A stretch of 37,123 bases of DNA from Syntrophobacteraceae bacterium (GTDB taxonomy: Bacteria; Desulfobacterota; Syntrophobacteria; Syntrophobacterales; Syntrophobacteraceae): NCBI GenBank assembly GCA_003165235.1, contig PLSV01000337.1:1-37123 (forward strand), read 5' to 3'. Below the pieces are notes generated by a model that was not told the DNA's origin, made no database searches, and saw only the letters and a program-made list of their open reading frames with translations. Below are positions 14,361 to 36,560 of the stretch, piece by piece. The position numbers and the translations under genes were made by a program. Within the stretch, counting starts at the first letter, position 1. Each line of letters starts with the position of its first letter.

Positions 14361-14389
14361 TTGACAATCCGGATCTGATTAGATATTGA
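14361..14389 (+). promoter_or_regulatory. Candidate sigma-70 promoter for the ligase operon
   Basis: A consensus -35 box TTGACA (14361-14366) is followed after 17 bases by TATTGA (14384-14389), a moderate -10. It lies about 35 bases before the leader peptide start, the position expected for an attenuated operon. Confidence 0.5.
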
Positions 14390-14423
14390 TTCGCAGATAA
14401 TTTCAACGGGATTTGAGGAGATT

Positions 14424-14477
14424 ATGCGAAGCAGGTTTTTCCACTTCAGCCTCTTTTTTAGCGGGTTCTCATTTTGA
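14424..14477 (+). CDS. Phenylalanine-rich leader peptide (attenuator)
   Basis: A 17-codon open frame preceded by GAGGAG encodes MRSRFFHFSLFFSGFSF, with seven Phe of 17 residues, including two FF pairs. The TGA at 14475-14477 is followed three bases later by a 12-bp hairpin, and an intrinsic terminator lies 100 bases downstream, in front of phenylacetate-CoA ligase. This matches the plan of pheA/pheST-type transcription attenuation: when charged tRNA-Phe is scarce the ribosome stalls on the Phe codons and the terminator is avoided. The peptide itself probably has no function after synthesis. The evidence is the composition, the ribosome site, and the order promoter-peptide-hairpin-terminator-gene. 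Chance T-richness is possible but unlikely to produce all of these together. Confidence 0.75.
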   Translation: MRSRFFHFSLFFSGFSF

Positions 14478-14609
14478 AAGCCTGCCCGTGGGAGAAAGGT
14501 AGAAGCGATCTGAACTAGAAGATAACAGCCATGGGCGGGCGAAGAGGGACCGGGGCCATGGCTTGCATTTTTCCGGGGCTGTGGATTCCACCAATCCACA
14601 GCCTTTTTT
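14478..14609 (+). promoter_or_regulatory. Attenuator leader RNA of the ligase operon
   Basis: The first hairpin pairs GCCTGCCCGTGG (14480-14491) with CCATGGGCGGGC (14529-14540), 12 bp with two wobbles. An alternative perfect 8-bp hairpin pairs AGCCATGG (14527-14534) with CCATGGCT (14556-14563), excluding the first. A short candidate antiterminator pairs ACAGCC (14525-14530) with GGCTGT (14577-14582), the left arm of the terminator. These mutually exclusive pairings are what attenuation requires. Which of them the stalled ribosome favours cannot be settled by eye. Confidence 0.6.
14577..14609 (+). terminator. Intrinsic terminator in the leader (attenuator)
   Basis: Perfect 11-bp stem GGCTGTGGATT / AATCCACAGCC (14577-14587 with 14593-14603), a 5-base loop, then TTTTTT. 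It lies 45 bases before the ligase start and after no complete large gene on this strand, so it makes sense only as a conditional leader terminator. Confidence 0.85.
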
Positions 14610-14654
14610 ATTACCCGCCTTCAGGGTATTCTCAGTAGCAGGAGGAGTCCGGGG

Positions 14655-15956
14655 ATGGTTTATGACATTGAATTCGAAACACTGCCCAGGGAGGCGATCG
14701 AGGCTCTTCAACTACGCCGCCTCAAAGAAACTGTGGAAAGGGTTTACGCCACGGTTCCCTTCTACCGCCGCAAATTCGATGAAGCCGCTGTAACGCCGTC
14801 CGACATAAAGAGCCTGGAAGATTTGAAGCGGTTTCCCTTTACGTCCAAACAGGACCTGCGGGACAACTACCCTTACGGGATGTTCGCGGTCCCGATGGAT
14901 AACGTGGTCCGCATTCACGCTTCCTCAGGGACAACCGGGAAATCGACGGTCGTGGGTTACACCGCACGGGACATCCAGACGTGGTCCGAACTGATGGCTC
15001 GATCTCTGGCGGCAGGGGGCGCGACTCGAGGCGACATCATACATAACGCATACGGCTACGGCCTGTTCACGGGCGGACTCGGAGTACACTACGGGGCTGA
15101 AAAGCTGGGCGCATCGGTGATCCCGATATCCGGGGGAAATACCAAGCGCCAGATACTCATCATGAAGGATTTTGGTCCGACGATCCTGACTTGCACGCCC
15201 TCCTACGCCCTTCATCTGGCGGAAGTCGCAGCGGAAATAGGTGTGGACTTCGCCACTCTTAGATTCAAGTCGGGTATTTTCGGCGCCGAACCCTGGTCCG
15301 AAGAGATGAGGACCGAAATTGAGGCGAAACTCCACCTGAACGCTATTGACATATATGGTTTAAGCGAGGTGATCGGACCGGGCGTTTCCATCGAATGCCT
15401 GGAAGCCAAGAACGGGCTGCACATCTTTGAAGATCATTTCATACCCGAGATAATCGATCCGGAAAGCGGCGAAACACTACCCAACGGCGAACAGGGTGAA
15501 CTGGTGTTTACATCGATCACCAAAGAGGCTTTCCCTATCATCCGGTACCGAACACGCGACGTCACATCGCTTAACCGTGAACCCTGTATTTGCGGCCGTA
15601 CTCATGTACGCATGCGAAAGGTGAGCGGCCGCACCGACGACATGCTCATCATCCGCGGAGTGAACGTTTTCCCCTCGCAGATCGAGAGTGTGCTCATGGA
15701 AATGAAGGAGGTCGAACCTCATTATCAGCTCGTAGTCGATCGCCTGGATAACCTCGACACCCTTACGGTCATGGTCGAGGTCGCCGAGTCCTTCTTTTCG
15801 GATGAGGTCCGCATTCTACAGAATATTGAAAAGAAGATCTCAAAGAACATAAAGGAGTTTTTGGGAGTGTCGGCCAAGGTGAAACTGGTGGAACCCAAGA
15901 CAATAGCCCGAAGTGAGGGCAAGGCCCAACGGGTGATCGACAATCGGAAAATTTAG
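14655..15956 (+). CDS. paaK: Phenylacetate-CoA ligase (aryl-CoA ligase)
   Basis: AMP-forming aryl-acid CoA ligase of the PaaK family, 433 residues, the normal length. The AMP/ATP loop is at residues 90-97 (SSGTTGKS). The adenylate motif [10 protein letters not shown] follows at about 235-245, and the C-terminal hinge region near 329-342 ([15 protein letters not shown]). GGAGGAG stands about eight bases before the ATG. It is cytoplasmic and forms phenylacetyl-CoA, or a related aryl- or indole-acetyl-CoA, from acid, ATP and CoA. In anaerobes such ligases serve either aromatic degradation or, with indolepyruvate:ferredoxin oxidoreductase, the making of aromatic amino acids from aryl acetates. 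The Phe-rich attenuator upstream and the ACT gene downstream point to the biosynthetic use (inference). No oxidoreductase gene is in the window. Confidence 0.9.
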
Positions 15957-16007
15957 TTCGTTTCATAGCAGTGCTGTTAAATAATCTGTCATAAGAGGAG
16001 GATGTCC

Positions 16008-16442
16008 GTGGACCATGTGGAACAGATTTCCGTTTTTCTGGAAAACAAGGCGGGGCGGCTTGCGGAGGTAACCAGGATCCTGACCGAAGCCAATATCAAC
16101 ATTCGGGCGCTCTCACTTGCGGATACTTCCGACTTCGGCATTTTGCGCCTGATCGTAAACAATCACGACAAGGCAAAGGCGGAACTCAAGAAGGCCGGCT
16201 TTGCAGTGGCCAAAACAGAGGTGGCCGCAGTCGAGGTTTCCGACCAGCCGGGCGGGCTTAATCATATCCTGCGCATTCTTAAAAAGGCCAGCGTCAACGT
16301 TGAATACATGTACGCTTTTGTCCAGCAAAGCGGCGCCAACGCAGTGCTCATATTCCGCTTCGACAATCTCGGTGAGGCGCTTAGGATTCTGAAGGACAAC
16401 GATGTGCGGGTCATAACGGGCGAAAAGCTCTACGCAATGTGA
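16008..16442 (+). CDS. Tandem ACT-domain amino-acid-binding protein
   Basis: Small cytoplasmic protein of 144 residues with two ACT domains (about 3-68 and 72-140), each with the beta-alpha-beta-beta-alpha-beta pattern and the Gly turn at the ligand site ([39 protein letters not shown]). ACT pairs bind amino acids, often aromatic or branched-chain, at their interface. The GTG at 16008 is the better start, as AGAGGAGG ends six bases upstream; the ATG at 16002 directly abuts it. It lies 51 bases after phenylacetate-CoA ligase and should share its attenuated transcript. It may sense phenylalanine and modulate the ligase or a partner enzyme; this is inference, as no catalytic domain is attached. 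Confidence 0.88.
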
Positions 16443-34553: not shown

Positions 34554-35375
34554 ATGACAGGATTCAAATTCCTGCTTTTTGTCGCTTTGCTGGCCGGATT
34601 CCCTGCTCTTGCCTACGCCGATTTGTATGAAGGCCAGGCGGCTTTGGCTGAAGGCAAAACGGCTTATGACAGAGGCGATTATGTTACAGCTTTTCGAGAG
34701 TTTAAGGGTGTGGCGGAACAGGGGAATGCTGTTGCGCAGTTTGCTGTAGGCTCCATGTATTACCGTGGTGAAGGCGCGCCCAAAGACTACCCGGCGGCGG
34801 CGAAGTGGTTCGGTAAGGCTGCAGCGCAGGGACACGCGGGCTCACAATATGATCTGGGAGTGCTGTATGCTGAGGGCCAGGGCCTTCCACAGAATTACGC
34901 CGAGGCTATAAAGTGGTGGCGTATGGCGGCGGACCAGGGATACGCTGATGCGCAACGCAGTCTGGGAGCGCTGTACGCCAGGGGACTGGGCTTTCCAAAG
35001 GACTACTCCGAAGCATTTAAGTGGTATCGCAGGGCGGCGGACCAGGGAAACGCCGACGCGCAACTTAATCTTGGAGCGATGCTCGATAAGGGTCAAGGCG
35101 TAGCGCAGGATTATGCCGAGGCTGCAAAGTGGTGGCGCAGGGCGGCGGAACAGGGACTTTCTCTGGCGCAACGTAATCTGGGATGGCATTATGCGCGGGG
35201 AGACGGCGTTCCTCAGGACTTCGTCCAGGCGTACATGTGGTTTGCCCTGTCGGCGGCTCAGAACGATCCGGAAGCCAAAAAGTCCAGAGACGAACTCGCC
35301 GGGCATATGACGCCCGCCCAGATCGACGAGGCGCAACGCCTTGCGAAAGAATGGAAGTCCAATCGCCAAAACTAG
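34554..35375 (+). CDS. Exported Sel1-repeat (TPR-like) protein
   Basis: A 273-residue protein with signal peptide (MTGFKFLLFVALLAGFPALA) and about six Sel1 repeats of 36 residues from residue 40 to 250, each with the pattern A...G...AQ..LG..Y..G.GV..DY.EA..W. Repeats are also visible in DNA as about 108-base units. GAGGAGG precedes the ATG by five bases; the earlier TTG at 34491 is not needed. Sel1 repeats scaffold protein-protein contacts, here in the periplasm or outside the cell. The partner is unknown. Confidence 0.85.
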   Translation: MTGFKFLLFVALLAGFPALAYADLYEGQAALAEGKTAYDRGDYVTAFREFKGVAEQGNAVAQFAVGSMYYRGEGAPKDYPAAAKWFGKAAAQGHAGSQYDLGVLYAEGQGLPQNYAEAIKWWRMAADQGYADAQRSLGALYARGLGFPKDYSEAFKWYRRAADQGNADAQLNLGAMLDKGQGVAQDYAEAAKWWRRAAEQGLSLAQRNLGWHYARGDGVPQDFVQAYMWFALSAAQNDPEAKKSRDELAGHMTPAQIDEAQRLAKEWKSNRQN

Positions 35376-36442: not shown

Positions 36443-36483
36443 ATTGGGTAGCCGGGGACTGTCGCCAGTCCCAGGCCCCCTTG

Positions 36484-36517
36484 GAACCGTGCATGCGACT
36501 TTCACCGCACACGGCTC
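36484..36517 (-). ncRNA. Group II intron domain V
   Basis: A 34-base catalytic hairpin beginning GAGCCGTGTGCGGTGAAAGT and ending CATGCACGGTTC on the minus strand, with a GAAA tetraloop and the two-base bulge, matching the domain V consensus. Confidence 0.9.
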
Positions 36518-36560
36518 GAGCATCTCTAAAAGGCAGCCCCTGTGAGGCGGCCCGGTTGTG

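Follow-up and report, generated by a model that had tools for sequence, protein, structure and literature searches.

A phenylalanine-codon attenuator of predicted six-segment type before a phenylacetate-CoA ligase gene in a Syntrophobacteraceae bacterium, and similar leaders at aromatic genes of Desulfobacterota

A phenylacetate-CoA ligase gene (paaK) preceded by a short reading frame rich in phenylalanine codons raises two questions: how the gene is controlled, and whether its product breaks down phenylacetate or helps to make phenylalanine. Such a locus was found in a stretch of 37,123 nt (the window), contig C418 of a draft genome of 7.07 Mb from a Syntrophobacteraceae bacterium. Very probably, a ribosome-mediated attenuator of the six-segment type senses charged Phe-tRNA here and controls paaK and the following ACT gene, with a ligase that most likely supplies Phe.

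A promoter, a leader ribosome site, a leader gene and a terminator lie between the divergent gene of an AI-2E-type transporter and paaK. The features of the locus are as follows:

14361-14389 (+), promoter, TTGACA (14361-14366) and TATTGA (14384-14389) with a 17-nt spacer, read in the sequence
14415-14420 (+), leader ribosome site GAGGAG, with a short 3-nt spacing to the ATG, read in the sequence
14424-14477 (+), leader peptide gene MRSRFFHFSLFFSGFSF (ATG 14424, TGA 14475-14477), 7 Phe among 17 residues, read in the sequence, with Phe-rich counterparts at this position in relatives
14461-14467 (+), segment 1, GCGGGTT, overlapping the final Phe codons; its pairing with segment 2 (helix 1:2) forms when untranslated RNA is folded as far as segment 5
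14480-14491 (+), segment 2, GCCTGCCCGTGG, from conservation and compensatory changes of helix 2:3
14529-14540 (+), segment 3, CCATGGGCGGGC, partner of segment 2 or 4, from the helix alignment
14556-14564 (+), segment 4, CCATGGCTT, partner of segment 3 (terminating) or 5 (antiterminator), from conservation of both helices
14575-14587 (+), segment 5, GGGGCTGTGGATT, the terminator's 5' arm, from terminator prediction and the helix alignment
14593-14609 (+), segment 6 (the terminator's 3' arm) with the T6 tract, supported by six covarying pairs in helix 5:6
14655-15956 (+), phenylacetate-CoA ligase (PaaK1), from TIGR02155 and solved relatives
16002-16442 (+), ACT domain pair protein, PF19571 ACT_8 (100 bits), solved relative 2f06

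PaaK1 scored 639.9 bits against TIGR02155, narrowly below the cut-off of 646.3. Its best solved relatives, 2y27 (E 3e-154), 2y4o and 4r1l, are each a phenylacetate-CoA ligase. By family profile and these close relatives the product is assigned as a PaaK phenylacetate-CoA ligase, with a predicted substrate. The ACT gene is found immediately 3' of paaK in 79 of 81 loci.

The promoter, the leader with its own ribosome site, the 12-bp hairpin behind it and the terminator had been described in a first-pass annotation of the window and were all read directly in the sequence. The 12-pair hairpin GCCTGCCCGTGG/CCATGGGCGGGC begins at the third base 3' of the leader stop. The intrinsic terminator consists of a stem (14575-14603) and six T (14604-14609), and the ATG of paaK at 14655 is 45 nt further. 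The −10 box TATTGA is weak and is missing from a promoter consensus scan because it matches TATAAT in only three of six positions. When the intergenic region was shuffled 20,000 times by dinucleotides, 100 of the shuffles contained an ORF 10-30 codons long carrying 7 or more Phe. The fold of the leader RNA was better than that of 198 of 200 shuffles (z −2.6; −3.0 for the part behind the leader alone). A leader reading frame that has a ribosome site of its own and clustered Phe codons, followed by predicted mutually exclusive helices that include an intrinsic terminator, is the set of features by which an attenuator is recognised.

Conservation is the strongest evidence that the predicted attenuator is real. 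The relatives of the window's genome are Syntrophobacterales and Desulfobacterales, and Phe-rich leaders 5' of paaK span both orders. Among 80 ligase relatives, such leaders occur at the same place, for example MRFRFFYFGFFSFLGGFFFRKSIHGPAR and MDNRFFRFRFFGFFGGFFFRKSAHGRGR. The residues of the listed paaK leaders are 29% Phe, 4% Tyr and 1% Trp. Each of the 38 aligned leaders has a TTGACA on its 5' side, in most cases with the 17-nt spacing, against an expected 0.045 per locus. In most relatives the leader runs through segment 2; in a few, as in the window, it stops immediately in front of it. A chance Phe-rich ORF was rejected on the shuffles and this conservation.

The leader is missing in about half of the 80 closest relatives, some of whose contigs end just upstream of paaK. 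Random loss of Phe codons and hairpins among relatives, named beforehand as the outcome that would speak against an attenuator, was not seen: every intact attenuator keeps its Phe-rich leader. Random decay of the leader was rejected, loss being mostly of the whole block. Leader presence takes 16 changes on the ligase tree, where shuffles need 27, and leaders are found on either side of the midpoint root. This distribution suggests that the element is old and has been lost repeatedly. In L052 (4845-4978) and L168, the 3:4 and 5:6 hairpins are kept before paaK and the leader peptide is gone, so that paaK may sit behind an unconditional terminator there.

Helix support was derived from an alignment of 38 paaK leader sequences, with the same structure slid by 1-3 columns as control. 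The alternative pairing proposed in the first-pass annotation exists, but it is not one pairing: five mutually exclusive helices, 1:2, 2:3, 3:4, 4:5 and 5:6, form a chain of alternatives. Helix 2:3 is paired in 97% of cells in its 10-pair part and 93% in the rest, and pairing is kept in 83% (1:2), 96% (3:4), 93% (4:5) and 95% (5:6) of cells. Compensatory changes are present in 2:3, 3:4, 4:5 and 5:6. Helix 1:2 is the weakest and segment 1 the least conserved segment. Taken as states, the predicted read-through state (2:3 with 4:5) has 94.5% of cells paired against at most 46% when slid, and the terminating state (1:2, 3:4 and 5:6) 92.5% against at most 51%; the slid controls range from 31 to 51% overall. 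The role of the 12-pair hairpin was corrected by assigning it to the putative read-through state, and read-through would also need 4:5 to hide the terminator arm.

An ordinary four-segment attenuator with one terminator, in which 3:4 and 4:5 are incidental or 3:4 is the main terminator, is unlikely. At least five T within 8 nt after segment 4 are found in 28 of the 38 leaders, which can make 3:4 look terminator-like, but both 4:5 and 5:6 are conserved, and the window has only a poor T tract behind segment 4 (CTTGCATTTTT). Helix 4:5 also shows a double change from C-G to U-A at columns 152/184, in the group with segment 4 CTCATGG and segment 5 GTGAG; segment 6 changes along with these columns, and thus both 4:5 and 5:6 are kept in that group. 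Within the six-segment reading, the U-run behind 3:4 means that many members may carry two tandem terminators.

Folding of the leader RNA in two states, proposed earlier as a check, produced the helices called for by the model in the majority of the 38 sequences when these were folded up to segment 5. With a starvation-type leader mask, 2:3 formed in 74% and 4:5 in 68%; with a sufficiency-type mask, 3:4 formed in 79% and 4:5 in 18%. In full-length RNA folds the terminator won over 4:5 every time, so the read-through state must act kinetically. For the window, the antiterminator is predicted in a register that is slightly shifted, yet it hides the same terminator arm. Rfam covariance models, amino acid leader families included, gave chance matches only on the window leader, and the T-box model gave no match. 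A T-box or other Rfam element was therefore rejected.

Ribosome stalling and termination in vivo are predicted from these features as follows. When Phe is scarce, the leading ribosome would stall at the Phe codons over segment 1, allowing 2:3 to form; segment 4 would then be freed to pair with segment 5, the terminator arm would be hidden and the polymerase could enter paaK. When Phe is plentiful, a ribosome at the stop codon would cover segment 2, 3:4 would form, and segment 5 would be free for the terminator 5:6 to end transcription. In many relatives, 3:4 with its own U-run could act as a first terminator. On comparative grounds, namely the leaders, TTGACA and the five covarying helices, the Phe-codon attenuator first proposed from this sequence is strongly supported, and its existence is close to certain.

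A covariance model was built from the paaK leaders. It matched 38 ligase relatives strongly and L075 weakly; since 37 of the 38 had been used in building it, only L086 is new there, together with the weak L075. Whole genomes gave independent evidence: the model matched 47 of the 56 genomes from the class and 128 of the 395 from the phylum. Sixty-two of these places were examined in detail, and target classes were assigned by BLAST with one representative each and confirmed by NCBIfam or Pfam. Strong matches lie in front of paaK; some families have a TPR protein gene in that position instead. The TPR protein gene lies directly behind the Phe attenuator in L086, L126, L128, L130 and L164, and in L086 paaK is found about 1.3 kb beyond it. 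In two Desulfamplus loci (L046 7009-7168 and L062 7009-7167) the match is downstream of paaK, not before it.

Among the 62 places, all weaker matches with a readable downstream gene precede aromatic or aromatic-linked genes. Their targets are DAHP synthase (21, one of them fused to prephenate dehydratase), periplasmic binding proteins of liv-type transporters (16), ADH synthase (6), aminotransferase (5) and a TrpB-like enzyme (1). The leader codons fit the pathway branch of the target gene: F at paaK, mostly Y at the liv-type transporter (liv-paaK2-iorAB), F and Y at aminotransferase, W at the TrpB-like enzyme and some DAHP synthases, and mixed F/Y/W at DAHP synthase and ADH synthase. At L167, a Trp leader of the same build (end NGMWWWQAWM) precedes the TrpB-like enzyme.

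The window's own genome holds further leaders of this kind. On contig C80 (about 34800-34928, minus strand; L194), the leader MNKHLFLNIRSLLPGRRGLDGPAFLSFSGFFFFFFRSVHLGY with hairpins and a terminator precedes a DAHP synthase-prephenate dehydratase fusion. Phe leaders at both this fusion and paaK place, in one genome, a textbook Phe gene and the paaK-ACT pair under one signal. The L194 leader end SGFFFFFFRSVHLGY resembles FFFRKSIHG of the paaK leader. On contig C137 (4579-4653, minus strand; L098), the Tyr-rich leader MLSRFYYYAYLYPGEGNASGMLGY and a terminator precede a DAHP synthase, which is followed by an apparent tyrA.

An indolepyruvate oxidoreductase, which the first-pass annotation had suggested looking for, was found in the same genome: on contig C286, iorA and iorB follow a second paaK in the order livHMGF-paaK2-iorA-iorB. 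No attenuator was detectable at this operon; livK is missing from its place, and the sequence upstream looks rearranged. In relatives, the order behind the Tyr-rich attenuator is livK, liv permeases and ATPases, paaK2 and iorA. Of the 56 class genomes, 50 have an IOR alpha subunit that scores above the cut-off, and in many of these the best one lies about 6-9 kb downstream of a Tyr-rich attenuator on the same strand. Tyr-rich attenuators of the same build were seen at the liv-paaK2-iorA operons L148-L157, L166 and L189-L192. In the proposed route, the ligase would convert phenylacetate to phenylacetyl-CoA, the indolepyruvate-type ferredoxin oxidoreductase (IorAB) would convert this to phenylpyruvate by reductive carboxylation, and transamination would give Phe.

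Since leader codons mark the amino acid that is supplied, paaK-ACT most likely serves Phe supply and not catabolism, as had been proposed from the window alone; the Phe leaders of relatives and the gene company support this well but indirectly, and we infer the direction from regulation and gene company. Purifying selection on the Phe codons shows that Phe is the controlling signal; it does not show which substrate the ligase uses or in which direction it works. The genome has a normal prephenate dehydratase (pheA), and the paaK route would therefore be an additional Phe supply, as salvage or supplement; phenylacetate is not required as a main source of Phe.

It is rather improbable that a real attenuator governs a ligase with no part in Phe synthesis, one that recaptures phenylacetate or acts on another acyl substrate, with the Phe signal as a general starvation cue. 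The TIGR02155 score slightly under the curated cut-off, the prephenate dehydratase and the presence of three PaaK-like proteins in the genome are consistent with it. Against it, the paaK leaders are Phe-specific where those of DAHP synthase mix F, Y and W, so that the codons follow the branch; the best solved relatives are phenylacetate-CoA ligases; and the partner is an ACT protein. That the operon serves phenylacetate or aromatic breakdown and the Phe-rich ORF before it arose by chance, as the catabolic role from which PaaK is best known might suggest, is already contradicted and hardly credible, as leader and helices are conserved across many genera, no PaaA/PaaC-type aerobic phenylacetyl-CoA epoxidase was found in the genome and no phenylacetate-degradation gene among the neighbouring window genes scanned.

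In the preferred reading, the leader peptide codons state which amino acid a gene serves. They assign the common and ambiguous paaK-ACT pair, and by extension liv-paaK2-iorAB, to the making of Phe and Tyr and not to phenylacetate degradation, which would change the annotation of many anaerobe genomes. This suggests that sulfate-reducing and syntrophic anaerobes rebuild Phe from phenylacetate instead of breaking it down, and a CO2-fixing route from arylacetate to amino acid becomes testable in bacteria. The matches also point to a regulon of aromatic attenuation, spread across Desulfobacterota, that has yet to be described. With moderate confidence, one architecture (aromatic leader, six-segment chain, often tandem terminators) may have spread over the aromatic genes of this phylum with its codons rewritten per branch. 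Arylacetate-CoA ligases and IorAB would be anabolic there, making Phe from phenylacetate behind a Phe leader, with an uptake-ligase-IorAB operon for aryl acid or amino acid behind a Tyr leader.

The kind of control is known: leader peptide attenuation with a his-type six-segment topology. The his attenuator of Salmonella and E. coli (hisL) follows a six-segment model, A:B / B:C / C:D / D:E / E:F. It shares with the paaK leader the six-segment chain, a stalled ribosome picking between two registers and an intrinsic terminator at the end. The paaK attenuator differs in its Phe instead of His codons, its unrelated sequence, a CoA ligase as target, the U-run often found behind the middle hairpin and the lack of a matching Rfam leader family. 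In enteric bacteria, pheA (pheL) and pheST (pheM) are controlled by a Phe-rich leader peptide and a conditional terminator; the paaK attenuator belongs to another phylum, has the six-segment architecture and controls another operon.

The aryl acid route of Methanococcus maripaludis reportedly includes an arylacetate-CoA ligase step. In this archaeon, aryl acids and indolepyruvate oxidoreductase (IorAB) provide a second route to aromatic amino acids (cited in PMC4162585). That route is archaeal and is not known to have an attenuator, whereas the window is bacterial with predicted control of the aminoacyl-tRNA type. For Desulfovibrio vulgaris, the Merino database (cited in PMC1173090) has a predicted attenuator in front of the aroA'-aroB'-pheA-aroF-tyrA-trp cluster, a case of aromatic amino acid gene attenuation in the same phylum; as given in PMC1173090 it is only tabulated, with no paaK, Phe leader family or phylum-wide set described. 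The main text on delta-proteobacterial regulons in PMC545781 contains no leader peptide attenuators. A literature search on attenuation with phenylacetate-CoA ligase, Deltaproteobacteria, Geobacter and Desulfovibrio, in which subscription journals are thinly covered and an earlier mention is possible, returned only the Merino prediction (PMC1173090). As far as found, what is new is the RNA family, which has no Rfam match, its paaK target operon and the set of aromatic attenuators in Desulfobacterota.

Apart from the paaK locus, a group II intron match (Rfam, 58.8 bits) was located in the window at 36443-36519 on the minus strand.
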